Positions 11,818 through 63,696 of a DNA stretch of 64,000 nt are shown here, one piece after another. A program made the position numbers and the translations under genes. Location: positions 107,573 to 171,572 of the forward strand of contig PMOE01000072.1 of the NCBI GenBank assembly GCA_003161575.1, given 5' to 3'. Numbering within the stretch: position 1 is the stretch's first letter; every line of letters begins with the position of its first letter. Source of the DNA: Acidimicrobiaceae bacterium. GTDB lineage: Bacteria > Actinomycetota > Acidimicrobiia > Acidimicrobiales > RAAP-2. The notes below the pieces were generated by a model. That model made no database searches. It was not told the origin of the DNA and saw only the letters and a program-made list of their open reading frames with translations.

Positions 11818-14800
11818 TCAGACTTTTTCAATCCAGGCCCGGGCTTCGCTCGTGAGGGCGTCGAGGTCGAGGACGATGCCCTCGCCTCTGCCCGCGCCGG
11901 CGACCACTTCGGTGGCGAGGACCTCACGCCCGATGTAGTCGAAGTAGGGGGTCAACTCGTCGAGGCCGCCCAAGGACAACACGATGCGGTCCGAGACGTC
12001 CAATCCGCTCGTCTTGCGCAGCTCTTGGACATGGCGCACGACCTCGCGGGCCAGGCCGCGCCGGGCCAGTTCGTCGTCGATGGCCAGTTCGAGAGCGACG
12101 ACCTCTCCCCCTTCTCTTGAGACGGCAAAGCCGGGTTGGCCCTGCACCCGCAGTTCGACATCACCGGGTCCGAGCTCGACGGGGCCGCCGGGCAGCAGCA
12201 CCGAGATGGTGCCGCCCTGCTCGAGGGTCGCCGCGGCGGCCACGCCGTCCAGACCGGCGAGTGCCCCCTTCAAGTCCCGAACCGCCGGACCGAGGCGGGG
12301 GCCAAGCTCTTTGAAGTTGGGTACCAGCTCGAAACGCAGCACCTCGCCGAGCTCGTCGGCCACCACCACCTCGTCGACGTTGAGCTCCTCGCCCACTACG
12401 GACTCGAGCAGCGCCGGGGCACCGGGGGACAAAAACACGAGGGCCCGGGCCAGCGGCTGACGCACCTTGACCCCGGCCTCGCTGCGCGCCGCGCGCCCAA
12501 GAGAAGCGAGCCGCCGGGCTTGGGCCATTTCGGATTCGAGGGCGGTGTCGATGGTACCGCGCGCTCCCGTGGGATCGGCGAGGGCGGGCCAATCGGCGAG
12601 GTGCACCGAATCGACATCGCCGGCGTCGGTGAGCTCTCGCCACAAACGATCGGCCAAAAAAGGACAAAACGGTGCGAGCAGCACGCTGAGGCGCACCAAC
12701 ACCTCGTGCAAGGTGGCCTGGGCGGCCAGGCTGTCGCTCGGGGGGGCGTCGGGGTCGGTCCGCCAAAAACGGCGTCGGCTCCGGCGCACGTACCAGTTGG
12801 AGAGATCGTCGACCAGCCGACCGATGGGAACGGCAGCGGCGAACGGTTCGTAGGCAGCCAGAGACTCGGTCACCTCGGCCTCGGTCGACGCCAGCCGGGA
12901 GAGCACCCAGCGGTCGAGCACCGGGCGGTCGGATGGCGCGGGGACCGCCGGGTCAGCCGGATCGAATCCGTTGAGCGAGGCGTAGGTCATGAAGAAGCTG
13001 AAGGTGTTCCACAAGGTGAGCGGCATCTCGCGCAACGACGTGTCGATCGAGTCGAGGTTCACCCGCGTCGGGGTCCACGGCGAACCCTGAGTGAACATCC
13101 ACCAGCGCAACGGGTCTGCCCCCCGGGAGTTGAGGATCTCCCAGGGATCGATGACGTTGCCGATCGACTTGGACATCTTGCGGCCGTCGGCGTCGACGAT
13201 GTGGCCGAGGCACATGACATGGCGGTAGGGGGCGTGGCCAAAGACGAGCACGTTGACCGCCAGCAGGGAGTAGAACCAGCCCCGGGTCTGGTCGATGGCC
13301 TCGGTGATGAAGTCGGCGGGGAAGCGGAGGGCTTCTTTCGAGCCGGGTTGATGGGGATAACCGACCTGGGCCGCGGGCATCGAGCCCGAATCGAACCAGG
13401 CGTCGATCACCGCCGCCACCCGTCGAGCGAGAGAGGACGCACCGTCGGACTGGTCGCGGTCGGACGCCGGATCGGCGCAGTCAGGGCAGGCAAAAGTGAC
13501 CTCATCGATGGTGGGTCGGTGCGGGTCGAGGGCAGTGACGTCGCGCCCGCAGAGTTCGGAGAGCTCCGCCAGCGAGCCCACGCAGAACACATGGCCGCCC
13601 CCGCAACGCCAGATGGGCAACGGGGTTCCCCAGAACCGGTCCCGGGACAGGGCCCAGTCGACGTTGTTCTCGAGCCACTCGCCGAAACGACCGTCTCGGA
13701 TGTACTCGGGGTGCCAGTCGACGCCGGCGTTCGCGGCCAGCAGGTCGCGCTTCTTGCTCTGCGTGGCGATGTACCAGCTAGGCTTGCCCCAGTAGATCAG
13801 CGGCGTCGAACAACGCCAGCAGTGGGGGTAGGAGTGGACGTAGGGCTGGCGGCGGAGCAGCAAGCCGGCCGCCTCCAGTCGGTCGTTGATGTCGTGGTTG
13901 GCCTCGCGCACCGCCCGGCCAGCGAGCCAGCCGATGGCGTCGGTGAATCGCCCGTCAGGGCCAACCGGGTTGAGCATGGGGAGGCCGTGCTCCCTGGCCG
14001 CCTGGCGGTCGATCTCACCGAAGGCCGGTGCGAGGTGGACGAGGCCGGTGCCCTCGTCGGTGGTCACGTAGTCCGCCGGGACCACTCGCCAGCCGTCGGC
14101 GCCACCGGGCGCCGGCAGTTCGTCAAAGGGGCGCTGGTACTTGAGACCCACCAGGTCCGTGCCCGGCACGCGGCGGGTGATCGTCGCCCCCTCGCCAAAG
14201 ACGTTGGGGACGAGCTCTTCTGCGACCAGCTGTCCGTCGACGACGGCGTAGCTCAGCGCGGGATTGACCGCCACGCCGGTGTTGGACACGAGGGTCCAGG
14301 GTGTGGTCGTCCAGACCACGAGCGACGTGGCATCGCCCAGCACACGCGGGTCGGCATCGACGAGAGGAAAGCGAACGTAGGCCGATTCGTCGTCCTCGTC
14401 GGAGTAGACGCCGGGCTGGCCCAACTCATGACTCGACAGCGCGGTCCCACACCGCGGGCAGTAGGGCACCACCTTCAAGTCCTCATAGAGCAGGCCCGCA
14501 TCGAACATGGTCTTCAAGTGCCACCAGACCGACTCGATGTAGCTCGGATCGAACGTCCAGTAGGCGGCGTCGAGGTCGACCCAGTACCCGATGCGCTCGG
14601 TCAGGTGCTTCCAGTCGTCGACGTAGTCGAGCACCGACTCCCGGCAGAGCCGGGTGAACTCGGCAATGCCGACCTCTTCTTCGATCTGCCGCTTGCCGGT
14701 GATCCCGAGCTTCTTTTCCACCTCGACTTCGACGGGGAGACCGTGGGTGTCCCACCCGGCCCGGCGGGCCACGTAGAAGCCGGCCATGGTCCGGTACCGA

Positions 14801-22365: not shown

Positions 22366-22441
22366 CCTCGTGCCGTCTGGTGTCTCGGTCGCTACGTTGA
22401 CCGAGCGCACGAGGGTCGGCGATCGGTGGGGACCACCGATC
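22366..22441. terminator. Nested hairpins between convergent genes
   Basis: An outer 8-bp stem (CCTCGTGC 22366-22373 with 22407-22414) encloses an inner 7-bp stem (CTCGGTC 22384-22390 with 22399-22405). A further 9-bp hairpin (GATCGGTGG 22421-22429 with 22433-22441, 3-nt loop) reaches the stop of the acyl-CoA dehydrogenase gene. It probably terminates transcription from both sides. Confidence 0.55.
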
Positions 22442-23567
22442 AGTCGAGGACGGCGACCGCCACTCGCTGCTCCAAGGCCCGGGTGTCCCACCAGCTGATC
22501 TGCAGCTGCTTGGCCCGGCGGAAGTAGAGCTGGATGTCGAACTCGAGGGTGAACCCAATGCCCCCGAAGATCTGCTGGGCCATGGCCGTCACGTCGCGGA
22601 AGGTCTGACAGGCGAACAATTTGGCCATCGGGGCCAGCCGTTCGGTCGGTCGGTCGTTGGCCCGGGCCCAGGCGGCCTCATGCACCAGGTGCTCGGCCCC
22701 GTCGACCGCGGTGACCGCATCGGCGAGGTAGTGGGCGAGGGCCTGGAAGGCCCCGAGCGGCTTGTCGAACTGCTCACGGTCCTTCGCGTATTGGACGGTG
22801 ATGTCGAGCGCGTAGCGGGCACCGCCGACCGCCTGTGCAGCGAGCAAGATGACCGCGTCACTCATGATTTCGTCCCAGGTGGCCCAGCCGGTGCCCGCCC
22901 CCCCGATGCGATCCGCCTCGCTCACCACCACATCGGTGAAGCCGACGTGATATTGGGTGTCCGAGCCTATGGTGAACTGCTGGGCCATCGAGACCCCGGG
23001 CGCGGCCGGGTCGACCAGGAACAGGTCCACCGCCGAAGGACCGTCACCGGTGCGGGCGAGGACGACCAGCCGGTCGGCGGCCTTCGCGAACGCCACATGC
23101 CGCTTCGTGCCGTTGATGACGACGCCCTCGCGGCCCGCCGTTGCACGGGTCTGGACCCCCCGTGGCCCGAAGCCACCGTCGGGCTCGAGCCATGCCGGGG
23201 TGAAGACAGCCTCGCCCGAGCCCAACTTGGCCAGCCACCCCGCCTGCTGCTCGTCGCTACCGGCCAGGGCCAACCCCCCGGCACACAACACCGCGCTGAC
23301 CAAGTGCGGCACCGGGGCGAGCGCCCGGCCCAGCTCCTCGTAGAGGGCGACCCCTTCCACCAGGGTCATGCCCGAACCACCGAAGGACTCGGGCACCAAC
23401 AGCCCGATCAGGTCGAGCTTGCCCAACTGGCCCCACAACTCGGCGGGGTACCCGACGGGGTCGTCCTCCATCGCGCGCACGACGGCGAGCGGGCAGTGCC
23501 GCTCGAGTACGTCGCGGACCGTTTGGCGCAGCATCTCCTGCTCAGGACTGAAGTCGAGGTCCAACAC
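22440..23567 (-). CDS. Acyl-CoA dehydrogenase, alpha-like subunit of a two-gene pair
   Basis: A 375-residue acyl-CoA dehydrogenase-fold protein, FAD-linked, making enoyl-CoA. FSPEQEMLRQTVRDVLER opens it, DREQFDKPLGAFQALAHYLAD is the conserved Arg-Glu-Gln helix, and GGIGFTLEFDIQLYFRRAKQ is the C-terminal FAD-contact segment. The usual C-terminal YEGT(S/N) catalytic-Glu loop is not evident. Together with the second dehydrogenase of the operon (25871) this suggests an alpha2beta2 heterotetramer as in FadE28-FadE29/ChsE-type enzymes, where the active site is shared. It is the last gene of the five-gene operon. Confidence 0.87.
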   Translation of the reverse strand: MLDLDFSPEQEMLRQTVRDVLERHCPLAVVRAMEDDPVGYPAELWGQLGKLDLIGLLVPESFGGSGMTLVEGVALYEELGRALAPVPHLVSAVLCAGGLALAGSDEQQAGWLAKLGSGEAVFTPAWLEPDGGFGPRGVQTRATAGREGVVINGTKRHVAFAKAADRLVVLARTGDGPSAVDLFLVDPAAPGVSMAQQFTIGSDTQYHVGFTDVVVSEADRIGGAGTGWATWDEIMSDAVILLAAQAVGGARYALDITVQYAKDREQFDKPLGAFQALAHYLADAVTAVDGAEHLVHEAAWARANDRPTERLAPMAKLFACQTFRDVTAMAQQIFGGIGFTLEFDIQLYFRRAKQLQISWWDTRALEQRVAVAVLD

Positions 23568-23615: not shown

Positions 23616-24101
23616 TCATGGTCGCCACTGGTCGCCCCGCCGGGCCCAAGGATTGTCATCGGTCGTCTGCGGAACGGCGACGCGGACGGCGCACGCTGTC
23701 TTCACATCGCCGTCAACCGCGAGCTCGATAGCCGCGCTCACCCAAGCGCAGCCCGCCTCGTCAACCTCGGTACCCTCCACGGTCCCGCACATCACCATCG
23801 TGTCGCCGGGGAACACCGAGCCCTTCATGGAGAAGGTCACCCGCCCGAGGCGGCCGTGGGGCCCGGTCCAATCGGTCACGTAGCGTTCGAACCAGGCGGC
23901 CTGGTTCGGTGTGTTGAGAAAGATGTCGCGGGTTCCGTTGCGATGCACCGCGAAGTCCTTGTCGTGGTGCATGGGTCGCCAGTCCCGGCTGGCCAGCGCG
24001 CCAAGGACGACGGTGCTCGCCGTGACGTCGTAACGGAGCTCGGGAAGGCGGTCACCGACCGCCACGCGGTCGTAAAGCAGACGGGGGGCGGGTCCGCTCA
24101 C
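23616..24101 (-). CDS. MaoC-like enoyl-CoA hydratase subunit (catalytic)
   Basis: A 161-residue hot-dog-fold protein. The hydratase-2 motif is recognisable as ASRDWRPMHHDKDFA (Asp and His catalytic residues). FLNTPNQAAWFERYVTDW and FSMKGSVFPGD are typical of the steroid-type ChsH1/MaoC partners. It probably hydrates an enoyl-CoA together with the upstream-encoded FAS1-dehydratase-like subunit, whose stop codon overlaps its start (ATGA). Confidence 0.83.
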   Translation of the reverse strand: MSGPAPRLLYDRVAVGDRLPELRYDVTASTVVLGALASRDWRPMHHDKDFAVHRNGTRDIFLNTPNQAAWFERYVTDWTGPHGRLGRVTFSMKGSVFPGDTMVMCGTVEGTEVDEAGCAWVSAAIELAVDGDVKTACAVRVAVPQTTDDNPWARRGDQWRP

Positions 24102-24661
24102 GAGGCCGCCCGCCGGTACCCGAAACCGGTGTAGGACTCGACTCCCACGAGTCCGCCCTCTTGATTGTGGTACACGACCTCGATCACCCAGAAGCGTCCG
24201 GTGCCGAGCTTGGTGGTCTTCTCGTCGCTCACCGACCGCAGCACCTGGTGGGTGTGCAACCGGTCGCCCGGTCGCACCGGGTCATAGAAGGTGATGGTGT
24301 TTTCGGTCATGACCGCCTCGGGCAACTCCAGCAGGGCCTTCAGATCGAAGTGCACCTGCAGCGGCAGGGCCGCCTCGGTCCGGCCCGGAGCCCAGTGGTG
24401 GGGTCGGAACCAGACCGAGAGCATCGTCGGTGGTGCGATGGGCCCGTTTGTGAGATCGGCTGCCGCCTCGTCGTCCCAAAAGAGCGGGTTCGCGTTCTCG
24501 ACCGACGAGCAGGTTGTCCAGATATAGCCGCGCTCGACGGGAAACTCGCCCTCCTCGGGGTACTGCTCGCCGCCGATCAGGCTCCGAGCTGCGGCCACCG
24601 GGTCGCCGGCCTGGTCGGCCAGCGCCGCCCGGAGCGCCCCGGACAACCCGGCCCCGGTCAC
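24098..24661 (-). CDS. FAS1-type dehydratase / MaoC N-terminal-like hydratase subunit
   Basis: A 187-residue hot-dog protein of the FAS1-like dehydratase domain group: VENANPLFWDDEAAADL, APPTMLSVWF, VMTENTITFYDPVRPGDRL. It lacks the DxxPxH catalytic motif, matching the non-catalytic CoA-binding half of heterodimeric ChsH-type hydratases. GTG 24661 was chosen because it overlaps the preceding CoA-transferase stop as GTGA and has a GGAG-like site; the longer version would need a TTG. Both junctions of this gene overlap by 4 nt, so operon coupling is tight. Confidence 0.8.
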   Translation of the reverse strand: MTGAGLSGALRAALADQAGDPVAAARSLIGGEQYPEEGEFPVERGYIWTTCSSVENANPLFWDDEAAADLTNGPIAPPTMLSVWFRPHHWAPGRTEAALPLQVHFDLKALLELPEAVMTENTITFYDPVRPGDRLHTHQVLRSVSDEKTTKLGTGRFWVIEVVYHNQEGGLVGVESYTGFGYRRAAS

Positions 24662-25863
24662 GCCACCGCTCCCGCGCTGCGCCAACCATCGATGGTGGCC
24701 GAGTCCACTCCGGCGGCCACCAGCCGCCGGTCGGTATCGGTGACCGACGGGTCGGGAAGGGCGATCGGAGCTATCGGTCGTGCCATACCGGCCAAGAGCG
24801 GACCCAACTGGCGGAAACGCCCCTCGGTCGGGTGCACCGCCTCGATGACCACCCCCCGGTGGACGAACTGCTCGTCGCTCGCCACTTCGGCGGCGGTCAG
24901 CACCGGGGCCACACAGGTGTCGGTGCCCGAGAGCTCGGCCATCCAGTCGTCGCGCCGCCGGGTGGCAAATACCTCGGCGAAGTCGGCCCGGATCCGGTCT
25001 TGCACGGCGTCGTCCAGCTGGTGGTCTATCCAGCGGTCACACCCGAGCGCCCGACAGAGGTTGGCGAAGAACTTGTGTTCGATGGCCCCGACGGCCAGCC
25101 ACCGCCCGTCGGCGGCCCGGTAGGCGTCGTAGCAGGCGTAGCGACCGGTCAAGATGTCATGGCCCGGACCCGGATCGGTGCCCGTCGCGAGGTGCTCGTC
25201 GATGGTGAGGGACATGAGCCACAGCACCCCGTCGGCCACGGAGACATCGAGGTAGGCGCCTTCGCCGGTCTTTTGGCGCCCGGTCAGGGCGGCGGTGATG
25301 GCCAGGGCGGCTTGCATCCCCCCCGCCGCCGCGTCGGCCACCGTCGCCCCGGGCAACGGGGGACCACCGTCGCTCCGGGGCCCGCTCGTGGCCAGGAACC
25401 CCCCCACGCCGAGATAGTCGACGTCGTGGCCGGCCCAGCCGGCGTGGGGCCCGGTCTGGCCATACCCGCTGGTCGAGCAGTAGACCACCGCCGGGTTGGC
25501 GGCGCGCACGGCCTCGTAGCCGATACCCAGGCGATCGGCCACACCCGGACGGAAGCTCTCCACCACCACGTCGGCCCGGGCGGCCAGGGTCAAGAAGGCC
25601 TCGAGACCAGCGGGGTCCTTCAGGTCCAGCAGCACGCGCGACATGCCCCGGTGCCCGCTGTACGCGAAAAACGCCGGCTCGATCTGCACGCCACTGTCGG
25701 AGGGCACCGGCCCGACCTTCACCACGTCGGCGCCGTAGTCAGCCAACAACCGGGTACAGCGGGCCGCCGGACCGACGCTCGCGAGGTCAAGGACCGTCAC
25801 TCCGGCGAGCGGTCCGGCAGGCGGGGGCCCGGTCGTCGGACCGGTATGGGTCTTTGCCGACAT
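24658..25863 (-). CDS. CaiB/BaiF-family CoA-transferase
   Basis: A 401-residue family III CoA-transferase. GVTVLDLASVGPAARCTRLLADYGADVVKV opens it (the middle is the nucleotide/CoA-binding region), VVESFRPGVADRLGIGYE follows, and STSGYGQTGPHAG lies just upstream of the conserved aspartate segment GHDVDYLGVGG. The family moves CoA between acids, or racemises alpha-methylacyl-CoA; the latter (AMACR-like) fits a branched or steroid side chain. ATG 25863 has TGAGG close upstream and lies 7 nt after the acyl-CoA dehydrogenase stop. Confidence 0.87.
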   Translation of the reverse strand: MSAKTHTGPTTGPPPAGPLAGVTVLDLASVGPAARCTRLLADYGADVVKVGPVPSDSGVQIEPAFFAYSGHRGMSRVLLDLKDPAGLEAFLTLAARADVVVESFRPGVADRLGIGYEAVRAANPAVVYCSTSGYGQTGPHAGWAGHDVDYLGVGGFLATSGPRSDGGPPLPGATVADAAAGGMQAALAITAALTGRQKTGEGAYLDVSVADGVLWLMSLTIDEHLATGTDPGPGHDILTGRYACYDAYRAADGRWLAVGAIEHKFFANLCRALGCDRWIDHQLDDAVQDRIRADFAEVFATRRRDDWMAELSGTDTCVAPVLTAAEVASDEQFVHRGVVIEAVHPTEGRFRQLGPLLAGMARPIAPIALPDPSVTDTDRRLVAAGVDSATIDGWRSAGAVA

Positions 25864-25870
25864 GGCGTCC

Positions 25871-27052
25871 TCAGAAGTTCTTCGGAAGGCCGAGCTTGCG
25901 GCGGGCGATGATGTTCTTCTGGATCTCCGACGCGCCACCCCCGATGGTGTCGATCACGGTGTAGCGGTAGGTGGACTCGGCCCGGCCAGCCATCGGGGCA
26001 TCGGGGGTCTTGACCCGGAGCTGGGTGCCGGGCCCGGCGATGTCCATCGACGCATCGGCCACCCGTTTGGACAATTCGGTCGCGAAGAGCTTGTACTCAG
26101 AGGCTTCCGACGTCGGCGCGGCGCCGCCTTTTGCTGACTCGAAGACGAACCGCAGGCCCATCACCCGAGCCACTTCGGCCTCGGTCGACAACTGTGCGAT
26201 GCGCTGGCGGATTACCTGGTCGTCGCGAAGCGGTTCGCCGTCTCGGGTCGTCGTCTTTACGTACTCGATGAGGAGTTCGAGTCGTTGGGCGATGGGTGAG
26301 AACGTGAACATGGTGAAGCGCTCGAGGTCGAGTGCTTCGGAGATGTACTGGAAGCCCCGGTTGAGCTCACCGACCACGTAGTCGTCAGGGACGAACACGT
26401 CGTCGAGATAAACCTCGTTGGTCCGTTCGTCGCCCATGGTCCAGATGGCGTTGATCGTGATGCCCGGCTGGTCGAGAGGAACGAGGAACAACGTGATGCC
26501 GAAGTGCTTCTGAGCGTCAGGGTCCGTGCGGGCGCCGACCCAGTACCACTCCGCGAAGTGAGCCGACGTTGTCCAGGTCTTCTGCCCGTTGAGCGTCCAC
26601 CCGCCGTCGACCTTGGTCGCCTTCAGCTGCATGGAGGCGGCGTCCGAGCCGGCATTGGGTTCGGAATACCCAACGGCGAATTCGACCTCGTTGCGCAGGA
26701 TCTTGGGCAGGAACTCGGCCTTGAGCTTGTCGTTTCCGTGGCGGATCAGGGTCTTGCCGATGATGCCGACCCCCTTGCCGATCTGGGGGCCGCCGCGCCG
26801 CGCCAGCTGCTCATTCAACAAGTACTCGTAGACCCCTTCGCCCTCCTTGCCCCCGTACTGGGTGGGCCAGGTCATCCCCAGCCAGCCCTGCTGGCCCATC
26901 TCGGCCATGAAGGACCGCCGAGCGGGGGTGTCGACGATCTGGGCCATGTTCTCCCGGGTGACGTCAAAGACATCGGGGTCGTCGTGGGCGTCGAGGAAGC
27001 TCTCCACCTCCTTGACGAAGGCGGTCTGCTCAGGCGAGAACTCGAAGTCCAT
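25871..27052 (-). CDS. Acyl-CoA dehydrogenase, beta-like subunit (first operon gene)
   Basis: A 393-residue acyl-CoA dehydrogenase. MDFEFSPEQTAFVKEVESFL opens it, GYSEPNAGSDAASMQLKA and TWTTSAHFAEW are flavin-site segments, and IDTIGGGASEIQKNIIARR is the C-terminal loop typical of FadE29/ChsE-like subunits. GGAGG lies 8 nt before the ATG. The promoter region is shared with the divergent ketosynthase-OB fusion and holds a palindromic operator. This gene leads the five-gene operon 27052-22440. Confidence 0.9.
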   Translation of the reverse strand: MDFEFSPEQTAFVKEVESFLDAHDDPDVFDVTRENMAQIVDTPARRSFMAEMGQQGWLGMTWPTQYGGKEGEGVYEYLLNEQLARRGGPQIGKGVGIIGKTLIRHGNDKLKAEFLPKILRNEVEFAVGYSEPNAGSDAASMQLKATKVDGGWTLNGQKTWTTSAHFAEWYWVGARTDPDAQKHFGITLFLVPLDQPGITINAIWTMGDERTNEVYLDDVFVPDDYVVGELNRGFQYISEALDLERFTMFTFSPIAQRLELLIEYVKTTTRDGEPLRDDQVIRQRIAQLSTEAEVARVMGLRFVFESAKGGAAPTSEASEYKLFATELSKRVADASMDIAGPGTQLRVKTPDAPMAGRAESTYRYTVIDTIGGGASEIQKNIIARRKLGLPKNF

Positions 27053-27095
27053 CGGGCGACCTCCGGTCGATGGCGGGGTCGGGCCTCGCCAGCCG

Positions 27096-27114
27096 ATCTG
27101 ACGGTCCGTCAGAT
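27096..27114. promoter_or_regulatory. Palindromic operator 1 (TetR-type)
   Basis: A 19-bp inverted repeat, ATCTGACGG-T-CCGTCAGAT, perfect around one central base. It lies 11-29 nt downstream of the TATGAT -10 and over the predicted start point of the minus-strand operon, where a repressor would block initiation. Length and symmetry fit a TetR-family site; no such regulator is encoded in the window. Confidence 0.7.
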
Positions 27115-27303
27115 TCGAACGGTCATCATAGGGTCGGTTTCGTCGGGTGGGCGACTGCCCGGCACGCCTCGCCGGCCGCCATCGGGTCGCAACAAGGGTT
27201 CTCGCCGCGATTCGGGTCTGCCCGCGGCCGCCGCCCGCGGCCGAACGGCCCCGGACGCCAGACGCACCGGCCCCTCGACTCGCCGCCCAGGCGGGCCCGC
27301 CTC

Positions 27304-27324
27304 TACCTGACGCACCGTCAGATA
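27304..27324. promoter_or_regulatory. Palindromic operator 2 (TetR-type)
   Basis: The core CTGACGCACCGTCAG (27307-27321) matches operator 1 at 13 of 15 positions. It lies just upstream of the TACGAT -10 for the ketosynthase-OB fusion gene, overlapping the -35 region. Confidence 0.65.
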
Positions 27325-27353
27325 CAAGAGGCGATCGGGCTACGATCGCGCCC

Positions 27354-28814
27354 GTGCGTGGAATCGTGGGTGCCGCCGGCTACGTTCCCTACCGGCGCTT
27401 GGAGCGGGCCCAGATCGCGTCCTTTCTCGGCTCCGGTGGGGGCAAAGGGACGAGGGCGGTGGCCTCCCACGACGAGGACACCACCACCATGGGTACCGAG
27501 GCGGCCCGCCTGGCGCTGCGCGGAGCCCCCGGGTCCGCCCCCGACGTGGTGTGGTTCGCCACCGCCAGCCCGGCCTACCTCGACAAGACCAACGCCACCG
27601 CCGTCCACGCGGCCCTCCGGCTGCCAAACGAGGTCCCGGCCTTCGACTTCGGTGGCGCGCTCCGCTCGGGTACCGGGGCCCTCGCCGCGGCGCTTTGTGC
27701 CGGCGGGATCGGGACGGCGCTGGTCGTCTCGGCCGACCAGCGCGACGGTCTGCCGACGAGCAGCGACGAAGCGGCCGGCGGCGACGCCGGGGCGGCCCTG
27801 ATCGTCGCCGACGACGGCCCGGGCGCGCCGGTGGTGGCCGAGTTTTTGGGAGGCGGGTCGGCGACCGACGAGTTCACCGACCGCTGGCGGACCCCGGGCG
27901 AACAGCGCTCGAGGGTTTGGGAGGAGCGCTTTGGTGAGACCCGCTACGTGCCACTAGGCCTGGAGGCCTGGGCCCGGGCGCTGAAGACCACCGGCATCGA
28001 CGCCTCGAGCGTCGCTCGCGTCGCGGTGACCGGGATGCACGCCCGCGCCGTCAAGGCGCTGGCCGGCAAGCTCGGCGTGGCCGAGGGCGCGTTGGCCGAC
28101 GACCTGTCGGCCTCGGTCGGCCAGGCGGGCGCCGCCCACCCGGCCCTTGTTCTCACCGCATTGTTAGAGGACGAGGCCCGCAGCCAGGCGGCCGGCGAGG
28201 TGCCCGCCGGCCGGGTGCTAGCCCTGATCCACTTGGCCGACGGCGCCGACGTGACGGTGTTGCGGACGACCAGCGCACTCGCCGACTGGCGGCCGGCCCG
28301 GCCGGTCGCCGCCCAAGTGGCGGACGGGGCCGCACTCCCCTACGGCAAGTACCTCAGCTGGCGGGGCCTTCTCGAGCTCGAACCGCCGCGGCGGCCCGAA
28401 CCCCCCCGGGTGTCGTCCTCGGCGGCGTGGCGCAGCGAGGATTGGAAGTTCGGCTTCGTCGGCTCGAAGGACCGCTCGAGCGGTGCCGTCCATCTGCCGC
28501 CGGCCCGGATATCGATGAAGGGCGGGGCGTTCGACGAGATGGACCCGGTCCCCCTGGCCGACGCCACCGGCACCGTGGTCACCTTCACCGTCGACCGGAT
28601 GGCCTATTCACCGAGCCCGCCGATCGTCTTCGCTGTCGTCGACTTCGACGGCGGTGGCCGCTTCCCGATCGAGCTGACCGACGTCGACGCCGACGCCATC
28701 GCCATGGGCGACCGGGTGGAAATGACCTTCCGCCGGCTCTTCACCTCTGATGGGATTCACGACTACTTCTGGAAGGCCAAGCCGGTGCGCGCCGGCTCGA
28801 AGGCAGGAGGCTGA
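27354..28814 (+). CDS. HMG-CoA-synthase/ketosynthase-III-like protein fused to an OB-fold (DUF35) domain; active-site residues missing
   Basis: A 486-residue fusion. Residues ~1-330 have the thiolase/HMG-CoA-synthase-like fold (GIVGAAGYVPYRRLERAQI; ATASPAYLDKTNATAVHAAL; ALVVSADQRDG). Residues ~345-480 form a DUF35 OB-fold (ATGTVVTFTVDRMAYSPSPP, then VVDFDGGGRFPIELTD). Where the nucleophilic Cys normally stands (A-C-x-S-G) the sequence reads FDFGGALRSGTGAL, with Leu. The DUF35 zinc ribbon (CxxC pairs) reads GSKDRSSGAVHLPPARI, with no Cys. It is probably a non-catalytic scaffold for the thiolase encoded 1 nt downstream, comparable to archaeal thiolase-HMGCS-DUF35 complexes and Ltp2-DUF35 aldolases. 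GTG 27354 has TACGAT 7 nt upstream. Confidence 0.8.
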   Translation: MRGIVGAAGYVPYRRLERAQIASFLGSGGGKGTRAVASHDEDTTTMGTEAARLALRGAPGSAPDVVWFATASPAYLDKTNATAVHAALRLPNEVPAFDFGGALRSGTGALAAALCAGGIGTALVVSADQRDGLPTSSDEAAGGDAGAALIVADDGPGAPVVAEFLGGGSATDEFTDRWRTPGEQRSRVWEERFGETRYVPLGLEAWARALKTTGIDASSVARVAVTGMHARAVKALAGKLGVAEGALADDLSASVGQAGAAHPALVLTALLEDEARSQAAGEVPAGRVLALIHLADGADVTVLRTTSALADWRPARPVAAQVADGAALPYGKYLSWRGLLELEPPRRPEPPRVSSSAAWRSEDWKFGFVGSKDRSSGAVHLPPARISMKGGAFDEMDPVPLADATGTVVTFTVDRMAYSPSPPIVFAVVDFDGGGRFPIELTDVDADAIAMGDRVEMTFRRLFTSDGIHDYFWKAKPVRAGSKAGG

Positions 28815-28815
28815 C

Positions 28816-30006
28816 ATGGGATCGCACGGGATCCGCGACCAGGTGGCCATCGTCGGCATGGGCTGCACCAATTTCGGCGAGCAGTGGGACCAGGGCCTCG
28901 ACGATCTGATCCTCGACGCCACCGGTCAGACCTTCAACTCGAGCGGCATTGCCAAGGGCGACGTCGACGCCTTTTGGATCGGCACCGCCCAAAGCGGGAT
29001 GAGCGGCATCACCCTGGCTCGCCCGCTCCAGCTCGAGGGTAAGCCGGTCACGAGGGTCGAGAACTATTGCGCGACCGGGTCCGAGGCACTGCGGGCCGCC
29101 GCCTACGCCGTGGCCTCGGGTGCCTACGACGTAGCCATGGCGGTCGGCGCCGAAAAGGTGAAGGACAGCGGCTATCAAGGGCTCAACGCCAACAATCCTC
29201 CCGGCGACGGGACAGCAAGGACCTTGACCGCGGCCGCCATGTTCTCGATGGTTGCTCCGGCCTACGGGGCGAAATACGGCGTGGACGAAGACCAGATGAC
29301 CGACGTGTTGGCCACCATCTCGGCCAAGAACCACTACAACGGAGCCCGCAACCCGCGAGCCCAGTTCCGCCGCGAGGTGTCCAAAGAGACGATCTGCGCC
29401 TCGCCGCGGGTGGCGGGACGGCTCGGGGTGTTTGACTGCGCCGGCGTGGCCGACGGTGCGGCTGCTGCGATCGTGGTGCGGGCCGAAGATGCCCACCGCT
29501 ACACCGACAAGCCGATCTACATCAAGGCGCTGTCGTTTGCCGCAGGGAGCGGCTCGGGCCTGATCGATCCCGACTACGACTACACGCACTTCCCCGAGTG
29601 CGAGCTGGCGGCCCGGGACGCCTACGCCCAGGCTGGAATCACCGACCCGCGGCACCAACTGGCCTTCGCCGAGGTCCATGACTGCTTCACCCCGACCGAG
29701 CTGGTCCTCATGGAGGATCTCGGGTTCGCCGAGCGAGGCACGGCGTGGAAAGAGGTGCTGGCGGGCACGTTCGCCCTCGACGGCGAGCTACCGATCAACC
29801 CCGACGGCGGGCTCAAGAGCTTCGGCCACCCGGTCGGCGCCTCGGGCCTGCGGATGTTCTTCGAGTGCTGGCTGCAATTGCGAGGCGAAGCCACCCCTGA
29901 ACGCCAGCTACACAGTGAGCGGACCCTCGCTCTTACTCACAACCTGGGTGGGTATCCCGGCGAGATGGTCTCGTTCGTCTCGGTGGTGGGCTCCGAGCTC
30001 GACTGA
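28816..30006 (+). CDS. SCP2-type thiolase / acetyl-CoA acetyltransferase (Ltp2-like)
   Basis: A 396-residue thiolase with a complete active site: the nucleophile in VENYCATGSEALRA near residue 82, HDCFTPTELV near 290 and GHPVGASG near 335. It resembles lipid-transfer-protein/SCPx-type thiolases, which cleave 3-ketoacyl-CoA, or perform retro-aldol release when paired with a DUF35 protein. AGGAGG lies 5 nt before the ATG, partly inside the end of the preceding gene, and only 1 nt separates the stop and start. The fused OB-fold domain next door is the likely partner. Confidence 0.88.
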   Translation: MGSHGIRDQVAIVGMGCTNFGEQWDQGLDDLILDATGQTFNSSGIAKGDVDAFWIGTAQSGMSGITLARPLQLEGKPVTRVENYCATGSEALRAAAYAVASGAYDVAMAVGAEKVKDSGYQGLNANNPPGDGTARTLTAAAMFSMVAPAYGAKYGVDEDQMTDVLATISAKNHYNGARNPRAQFRREVSKETICASPRVAGRLGVFDCAGVADGAAAAIVVRAEDAHRYTDKPIYIKALSFAAGSGSGLIDPDYDYTHFPECELAARDAYAQAGITDPRHQLAFAEVHDCFTPTELVLMEDLGFAERGTAWKEVLAGTFALDGELPINPDGGLKSFGHPVGASGLRMFFECWLQLRGEATPERQLHSERTLALTHNLGGYPGEMVSFVSVVGSELD

Positions 30007-31327: not shown

Positions 31328-32446
31328 TCAGAGCAACGACTCGAGCGCAGTGAATGCAAGACCGTGGGACTCGGCCACGGGTTCACAGACGACCGCCCCT
31401 TCGACCACATTGACCCCGAGAGCGAGGGCCGGGTCGGCCTGCACCGCATCACGCCACCCCCGATCGGCGATCTCGAGCGTGTAGGGAAGGGTGGCGTTCA
31501 CCAAGGCATAGGTCGACGAGTGCGGAACCGCACCGGGCATGTTCGCCACGCAGTAGAAGATCGACCCTTCGACCTCGAACGTCGGTTTCGAGTGGGTGGT
31601 CGGGCGGGTTGACTCGAAGCATCCGCCTTGATCGACTGAAATATCGACGAGCACCGAACCCGTCGGCATGCGGGCCACCAGTTCGTCGGGCACGAGTGTG
31701 GGCGCCCGGGCCCCGACAACGAGGACGGCACCGATCACCAGATCGGCGTCAGAACAGGTCTCCTCGATGGCGTGCGCACTTGAAGCCACGGTCTCGAGCG
31801 CCCCGCGGAAGTGGTGATCGACTTGGCGCAGCCGCTCGAGGTTGCGGTCGAGGATGTAGACGTTGGCGTGCATCCCGACGGCCAGGGTGGCCGCCGCCAT
31901 CCCGGCGACCCCCGCTCCGAGGATGACGATCTTGGCGCACTCGACACCGGGAACACCGCAGACAAGGGTCCCCCGGCCGCCGGCCGGACGCATCAGGTGG
32001 TGGGCCCCCATGAACGGGGCCATGCGACCGGCCACCTCGCTCATCGGGGTGAGCAGCGGCAGCGAGCCGTCGGGGAGGCGGACCGTCTCGTAGGCGATCG
32101 CCGTGTTCTGTGCGGCCAACAGCGCGTCGGTGCACGAGCGAGAAGCCGCGAGGTGCAGGTAGGTGAACAACACCTGACCTTTGTGCAACCCGAGCCAGGG
32201 GTACTCCTCTCCCACCGGCTCTTTGACCCCGAGGATCATGTCGGATTCGGCCCAGATGCCCTCGGGTTCGGCGATGATCATCGCCCCGGTCCGCACGAAG
32301 TCCTCGTCAGGTATCGACGAGCCCCCGCCCGCTCCCCGCTCGACGAGGACCGTATGGCCGTGGGCGGTGAGCTCGCGCACCCCAGCCGGCGTGATGGCCA
32401 CCCGGTACTCGTCGTCTTTGACTTCTTTGGGTACCCCGACAATCAC
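31328..32446 (-). CDS. ald: Alanine dehydrogenase
   Basis: A 372-residue NAD-linked enzyme interconverting L-alanine and pyruvate plus ammonia. MIVGVPKEVKDDEYRVA is the classic Ald start; the catalytic Lys/His region is VKEPVGEEYPWL to YLHLAA, and the Rossmann motif is ILGAGVAGMAAATLAVGM. VDISVDQGGCFESTRPT and PGAVPHSSTYALVNATLPY are strongly conserved in Ald. Length matches the family. It follows the aldehyde dehydrogenase on the same strand (48-nt gap) and can recycle the alanine made by the omega-amine:pyruvate transaminase next door. GTG 32446 has GAGG ~6 nt upstream. Confidence 0.95.
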   Translation of the reverse strand: MIVGVPKEVKDDEYRVAITPAGVRELTAHGHTVLVERGAGGGSSIPDEDFVRTGAMIIAEPEGIWAESDMILGVKEPVGEEYPWLGLHKGQVLFTYLHLAASRSCTDALLAAQNTAIAYETVRLPDGSLPLLTPMSEVAGRMAPFMGAHHLMRPAGGRGTLVCGVPGVECAKIVILGAGVAGMAAATLAVGMHANVYILDRNLERLRQVDHHFRGALETVASSAHAIEETCSDADLVIGAVLVVGARAPTLVPDELVARMPTGSVLVDISVDQGGCFESTRPTTHSKPTFEVEGSIFYCVANMPGAVPHSSTYALVNATLPYTLEIADRGWRDAVQADPALALGVNVVEGAVVCEPVAESHGLAFTALESLL

Positions 32447-62463: not shown

Positions 62464-63696
62464 ATGGCCACCACCCCCCCGCTGCACGGCATCCGGATCA
62501 TCGAGGCTTCGGCCCTCGGGCCGGCGGCCATCACCATGCCCCTGATAGATCTCGGGGCCGAGGTGATCAAAGTGGAGCCGCCCCAGGGCGACTACATCCG
62601 CGAGATGACATGGCCGATCGTCGAAGGCGTCTCGCTGATGCACCTCCACCTCAACCGGGGGAAACGCAGCCTGGTACTCGACCTGAAATCCGACGCGGGA
62701 GTCGCTGCGTTCAGCGAACTGGCCCGGAGTGCCGACGTCGTGGTCGAAGCGATGCGGCCCGGCGGACTGGCCCGCCGGGGGCTCGGCTTCGACGAGCTGG
62801 TGAAGATCAACCCCAAGATCGTGTTTTGCACCATCTCGGGCTACGGAATGACGGGGCCCTATAAGGACTATCCGAGCCACGGCATCGCTTATGACACCTG
62901 GGCCGGGATCGTCAACGTGGCGACCGACGAGGAGGGTTTCACCTACATCCCCGAACACGCGTCCATCGGCATCCATGCTGGACCGCTGTTCGGAGCGCTC
63001 GGCATCCTCGCCGGAGTCATCCGGGCCCGGGCGACCGGGGAGGGCTCCTTTCTCGAGATCGCCCAAGCCGACGCGGCGGCCGCCATGGACTGGTACCGCA
63101 GCGAGAGCTGGCGAGCCTACGAGCGCCCCGAGTCAGAAGTGACGGGGAACAAGGCAGACAACTACGAACGGCGGGCGCCGGGCACGGCCGGCATGAAAGA
63201 AGGCGTGCGTTACCAGGTCTACGAGGCCTCCGACGGGCGCCACGTGCTCTTTATGGCCTCCGAACAGGCCTTCTGGAAGAACTTCTGTAACGCGTTGGAC
63301 CGTCAGGATCTCTTCGAGCGGTGGCCCGGCTCGACGTTTGCCGACCACGCCAGGGGGAACCGGGAGCTTCAAGGCGAGTTGAAGGCCATCTTCGCCACCA
63401 AGACCGCGGCGCAATGGCTCGAGTTCGGCGGCCGGGTCAACACCCCGATCGCCCCGGTGAACACGCCGAAGACGTTGCTCGAGGACCCCCAATTCCAAGA
63501 CCGCTTCCCCCTCTACCGGGCCAGCGATCTCGGGGCCGACGAGCTGCCCGGCCCGATCAAGTTCGTGGGCGAAGCACTTCCCGCTCCGACCAAGGCGCCG
63601 ACGGTGGGTGAGCACACCGACGACGTGCTGCGCGAGGTGCTCGGCTGGGACGACGCCCGCATCGCCACGGCGCGCCAGGCGGGGGCGTTCGGCTGA
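62464..63696 (+). CDS. CaiB/BaiF-family CoA-transferase
   Basis: A 410-residue family III CoA-transferase: GIRIIEASALGPAAITMPLIDLGAEVIKVEPP at the start, HLNRGKRSLVLDLKS, SRPGG-like VVVEAMRPGGLARRGLGFDEL and TISGYGMTGPYKDYPSHGIAYD, the segment holding the conserved Asp, near 140. It may shuttle CoA between acids or racemise an alpha-methylacyl-CoA. It is distinct in sequence from the copy at 24658. ATG 62464 has AGGAG 9 nt upstream; ATG 62434 is an alternative. Confidence 0.87.
   Translation: MATTPPLHGIRIIEASALGPAAITMPLIDLGAEVIKVEPPQGDYIREMTWPIVEGVSLMHLHLNRGKRSLVLDLKSDAGVAAFSELARSADVVVEAMRPGGLARRGLGFDELVKINPKIVFCTISGYGMTGPYKDYPSHGIAYDTWAGIVNVATDEEGFTYIPEHASIGIHAGPLFGALGILAGVIRARATGEGSFLEIAQADAAAAMDWYRSESWRAYERPESEVTGNKADNYERRAPGTAGMKEGVRYQVYEASDGRHVLFMASEQAFWKNFCNALDRQDLFERWPGSTFADHARGNRELQGELKAIFATKTAAQWLEFGGRVNTPIAPVNTPKTLLEDPQFQDRFPLYRASDLGADELPGPIKFVGEALPAPTKAPTVGEHTDDVLREVLGWDDARIATARQAGAFG

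Follow-up and report, generated by a model that had tools for sequence, protein, structure and literature searches.

Divergent genes and two palindromes in the window

The window analysed here, a stretch of 64,000 nucleotides, contains two runs of genes that diverge from the gap between the ATG at 27052 on the minus strand and the GTG at 27354 on the plus strand. The leftward genes (27052 to 22440, minus strand) probably form one operon, which begins with an acyl-CoA dehydrogenase (25871..27052; Pfam PF00441, PF02770 and PF02771 over cut-off) and continues with a family III CoA-transferase (24658..25938; PF02515, 296 bits), a protein with a FAS1-like dehydratase domain (24098..24685; PF13452), a protein in the same orientation that gave no match in the Pfam scan (23616..24101) and a second acyl-CoA dehydrogenase (22440..23567; four Pfam domains). 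On the plus strand, an HMG-CoA-synthase-like ketosynthase fused to a ChsH2-type OB domain (27354..28814; PF01796, and NF003274 below its curated cut-off) starts at the GTG and is followed by a thiolase (28750..30006; PF22691 and PF00108), the next gene of the rightward operon.

Inspection of the sequence confirmed the two palindromes that a preliminary description of this DNA had placed in the gap, at 27096–27114 and 27307–27321. Site 1, ATCTGACGGTCCGTCAGAT, is a perfect 19-base dyad centred 53 bases before the left ATG, and site 2, CTGACGCACCGTCAG, is a 15-base dyad centred 40 bases before the right GTG; as previously claimed, their cores agree at 13 of 15 positions. A search of the window for CTGACGNNNCGTCAG returned these sites as its only two perfect matches, whereas a first-order Markov model of the window predicts 0.013 in 64 kb, and the model gives a probability of approximately 1e-4 for a second perfect match within 300 bases of a given one. 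Scored with a matrix trained on 66 sites from other genomes only, sites 1 and 2 reached 29.2 and 26.8, respectively, compared with 14.7 for the next best place in the window. Both are annotated as predicted operators on the basis of dyad symmetry, motif excess and matrix score. Approximate matches showed no excess: with three mismatches allowed, the window contained 46, compared with 63 in shuffles, and with two allowed, the genome contained 206, compared with 223 for the control pattern; only near-perfect sites were therefore used.

A consensus scan found no full sigma-70 promoter between the two genes. By eye, a possible −10 element, TATGAT, can be read at 27130–27125 (minus) for the leftward operon, and another, TACGAT, at 27341–27346 (plus) for the rightward operon; neither appears in the consensus scan. 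If the former is real, site 1 seems to occupy approximately +4 to +22 of the acyl-CoA dehydrogenase transcript. The preliminary description had placed this site over the likely transcription start; with this −10 element, it appears instead to begin a few bases past the start. If TACGAT is real, the ketosynthase-OB transcript would be leaderless and site 2 would cover its −35 region, with the centre near −40, in line with the overlap that had been proposed. Repressors commonly bind just downstream of the start or around −40. The minus strand also carries, at 27349–27331, between site 2 and the ketosynthase-OB gene, a terminator-like hairpin with a T-rich stretch after it.

Occurrence of the motif in the genome and its relatives

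The perfect motif CTGACG-N3-CGTCAG occurred five times in the 3.53-Mb genome, compared with 0.7 expected under the Markov model and none for the reversed pattern. Outside the window, perfect sites lie between an aldehyde dehydrogenase and a ChsH2-like OB protein (C4:19438), between an amidohydrolase and a short-chain dehydrogenase gene (C4:28258), and between an acyl-CoA dehydrogenase and MsrB (C25:15626). Further, near-perfect sites, scored with the same matrix, lie between an acyl-CoA dehydrogenase and a thiolase (C4:37294), 15 bases before an Amidohydro_3 gene as called (C68:22557), near the start of an acyl-CoA ligase, where the open reading frame as called runs across the site (C44:66712), and adjoining a 255-aa protein without a Pfam match (C54:31574). 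The genome-wide search for the motif upstream of lipid genes, which the preliminary description had suggested, thus yielded acyl-CoA dehydrogenase, thiolase, aldehyde dehydrogenase, acyl-CoA ligase and amidohydrolase targets. The shorter pattern TGACG-N3-CGTCA was found at 11 places in the genome against one for its reversed form, but 7.8 are expected under the Markov model; five of the extra matches, located inside called genes, scored 9–16, and a sixth, on contig C44, scored 24. The low scores of the matches inside genes indicate that the outer bases matter.

Analysis of 41 genomes of the family and order revealed 86 sites against 5 for the reversed pattern (summed from the per-genome table), and the 148 genomes of the class contained 249 against 26. 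The 71 of the 86 family and order sites that were inspected in sequence have the consensus A-[T/C]-CTGACG-(G)N(C)-CGTCAG-[A/G]-T, and 6 of them lay deep inside a called open reading frame, though 64.5% of bases do. A random frequency of the motif in coding sequence had been named beforehand as the outcome that would overturn the regulatory reading; the excesses in this genome and in the class, with 65 of 71 sites not deep in a reading frame, speak against it. The gene clusters most often starting near sites were acyl-CoA dehydrogenases and Amidohydro_2 proteins (13 each, with cluster families assigned from representative proteins), and most targets are genes of CoA catabolism.

A perfect dyad can fold into a hairpin, and the terminator-like hairpin at 27349–27331 lies close by, such that the palindromes might be taken for RNA hairpins or chance inverted repeats instead of protein-binding sites. 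The motif, however, exceeds both the reversed control and the Markov expectation, its letters are conserved and not its pairing alone, and the likely start point is downstream of site 2; this explanation is scarcely credible.

Co-occurrence of the sites with a TetR_C_38 protein

The preliminary description had noted that the window holds no regulator gene, and this was borne out: the only TetR match on the contig (C32) is at 31365, outside 107573–171572. The genome contains 24 TetR_N matches over the Pfam cut-off, and a matrix scan found no good site upstream of any of its TetR genes. Among the genomes studied, three of the few TetR genes near sites share the C-terminal family TetR_C_38. This genome encodes a single TetR_C_38 protein, our candidate regulator, on a different contig from the window (G000:C4, ~11,996–12,904); it matches PF00440 with 34 bits (cut-off 24) and PF19352 with 103 bits, and the TetR_N helix-turn-helix is present. 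Its predicted structure (pLDDT 91.5) is of the TetR type, and the recognition-helix region SPATFYQYF is nearly invariant in the 15 proteins compared.

The distribution of the sites followed that of the TetR_C_38 gene. Based on Pfam assignments of TetR_C_38 and TetR_C_20, and omitting one below-cut-off genome for each family (G173 and G066, respectively), at least three sites were present in 31 of 37 class genomes with TetR_C_38 and in 1 of 111 without it, and at least two in 35 of 37 and 6 of 111, respectively; p values for such counts overstate the association, since the 148 genomes are related and not independent. The difference persisted among genomes rich in lipid genes: of the 55 with at least 25 acyl-CoA dehydrogenase candidates, a first-look number scored up to ~28 per genome, at least three sites were found in 31 of 37 with TetR_C_38 and in 1 of 18 without it. 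Within families f25, f32, f33 and f40, genomes that lack the gene have no site or one. Exceptions occurred in both directions. Six sites each were found without a TetR_C_38 gene in G139 (class set) and G024 (relatives), and two each in G019 and G028, while G153, G025 and G036 lack a perfect site despite carrying the gene; the majority of these exceptions come from incomplete assemblies. In the drafts of G139 and G024, the assembly may have missed the gene, or it may have been replaced.

Sites were also found upstream of the TetR_C_38 gene itself. Four of 17 TetR_C_38 loci from 16 genomes have a site scoring 18–22 within 60 bases upstream, and two more have weaker ones (11–12); in G074, the coordinates point to a site close to the gene start. 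Another set of 28 TetR_C_38 loci, from Acidimicrobiia and other metagenome-assembled genomes (MAGs), contained eight with a site of at least 14 within 110 bases upstream of the match. In this genome, nothing above score 8 lies upstream of the TetR_C_38 gene.

The nearest named relatives of the candidate, among the best 80 of at least 584 matches, are proteins of Acidimicrobiales MAGs with ~70% identity, followed by Streptomyces proteins with ~47%. Around the Streptomyces orthologues, 102 sites scored above 17 compared with 3 in shuffled copies of the same 52 loci, which share ancestry, and 36 of the 52 held at least one. The S. coeruleorubidus locus has a pair of sites in the gap between an acyl-CoA dehydrogenase gene and a thiolase gene that diverge from each other, ~2 kb away from the gene for the regulator.

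Co-occurrence is no proof of binding, and the profiling covered the TetR family with two of its subfamilies; the sites might be read by some other, unrecognised regulator whose gains and losses parallel those of TetR_C_38. Against this stand the sites upstream of the TetR_C_38 gene in several genomes and beside it in Streptomyces, and a scan of 10 short site-adjacent genes and six further proteins that revealed no other regulator. We regard such a protein as unlikely.

A more specific competitor is the TetR_C_20 protein, a homologue of KstR (E 3.8e-33 to M. tuberculosis KstR), which would make the sites part of a KstR-type lipid regulon. TetR_C_20 also tracks the sites (at least three in 29 of 43 genomes with it and in 3 of 105 without); its gene closely adjoins the TetR_C_38 gene in most genomes of the family and lies ~3 kb from it here, and in G003, G023 and G004 the site upstream of the TetR_C_38 gene falls between the two. 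The genomes that carry one gene alone, however, separate them: the five with TetR_C_38 only have 2, 2, 3, 4 and 4 sites, whereas of the 11 with TetR_C_20 only, six have none and the others 1, 1, 2, 2 and 6. Furthermore, the KstR homologue gene of this genome (L123:8926-9522, minus, on G000:C4) has a canonical KstR operator of its own, TAGAACAGGTTCCA, 24 bases upstream of its start (L123:9546), judged by the motif given in PMC1995591. This operator and the retention of sites with TetR_C_38 alone indicate that KstR very probably recognises the KstR motif rather than the palindromes described here, which leaves KstR as the reader of the sites a very improbable option.

Comparison with known regulators

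The arrangement resembles the KstR regulon of mycobacteria, for which PMC1995591 describes a TetR repressor with many palindromic operators before lipid-catabolic genes, some of these operators in divergent regions, two operator copies in one region, and autoregulation. The KstR operator given there, TnnAACnnGTTnnA, is unlike CTGACG-N3-CGTCAG; sites 1 and 2 do not fit it, and its only match in the window, at 63292, lies inside a gene. The TetR_C_38 protein also matched 28 PDB sequences, and KstR is not one of them. The operators of the Thermus thermophilus TetR proteins TTHB023 and TTHA0167/SbtR (PMC7022988) share the CTGAC/GTCAG ends, and fatty-acid genes are among their targets; those sites are even-spaced (aY(g/t)A(A/C)YGryCR... 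and TGACYrnnyRGTCA), in contrast to the odd 15-base core here. SRTF1, a steroid-responsive TetR protein of Nocardioides simplex, likewise has a palindrome between divergent genes, one of them next to it encoding a steroid dehydrogenase; its operator is described as a 22-base palindrome (PMC7807495 and PMC7062782).

The best fold match of the candidate was the TetR protein EthR of Mycobacterium tuberculosis (Z ~17 over 184–195 residues, ~20% identity), followed by FasR, PfmR, DesT and FadR. The sequence match between EthR and the TetR_C_38 protein (E ~1e-5) covers mainly the N-terminal half. The fold matches include entries of FasR, DesT and FadR with acyl-CoA. A shared fold does not prove a shared ligand; together with the targets, it suggests that the ligand would be an acyl-CoA.

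Proposed regulon

We propose, with a probability of roughly 85%, that both palindromes are operators of one TetR-family regulator whose repression is lifted by a ligand, and that the single TetR_C_38 protein is the best candidate. The preliminary description had predicted one TetR-type repressor acting in trans in both directions, a prediction supported by the co-occurrence with TetR_C_38, the CoA-catabolic targets and the location of the candidate on another contig. A TetR_C_38 dimer would bind each 15–19-base dyad. Bound at site 1, the repressor would cover the earliest transcribed bases of the acyl-CoA dehydrogenase operon; bound at site 2, it would occupy the −35 region that serves the ketosynthase-OB/thiolase operon. 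Both positions are compatible with repression, which would be lifted as an intermediate from the breakdown of the compound accumulates; an acyl-CoA is the most likely such intermediate.

Palindromic operators at the promoters of several genes are a trait of a TetR-family regulon and were found here; the system is an uncharacterised member of this familiar kind. A literature search found no paper that links the motif to a regulator or describes TetR_C_38, within a coverage that was thin for subscription journals and may have missed a Streptomyces study. The analysis links an operator motif to one candidate regulator and to a set of target genes, and so outlines a testable regulon in a class of mostly uncultured Actinomycetota, with a reach into Streptomyces, where laboratory work is feasible; TetR_C_38 offers a possible sensor protein for its ligand. 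On a broader reading, for which we consider the chances evenly balanced, TetR_C_38 would be an undescribed global regulator of acyl-CoA catabolism that acts in parallel to KstR and, in this family, is often encoded beside it. Under this reading, its regulon in Acidimicrobiia and Streptomyces, built around acyl-CoA dehydrogenases and amidohydrolases, would reach ~19 perfect operators in some genomes and would point to an unknown pathway for acids of branched or cyclic structure, which would be sensed via an acyl-CoA intermediate.

The regulon also points to amidohydrolases of unassigned role as part of acyl-CoA catabolism. Together with acyl-CoA dehydrogenases, Amidohydro_2 and Amidohydro_3 genes are among the commonest neighbours of the sites (amidohydrolases at L027:17037-18236, L070:10013-11236, L209:3338-4594, L064:4241-5971 and L036:7580-9337). 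One gene cluster diverges from an acyl-CoA dehydrogenase across a site in three genomes (L029:9682-10152, MsrB by Pfam, L086:5574-5978 and L090:6025-6456). A perfect site was also observed between a dUTPase gene and an exonuclease-domain gene, neighbours without an evident lipid role, in L105:5418-6668 and the like region of L106, which belong to two genomes of one genus.
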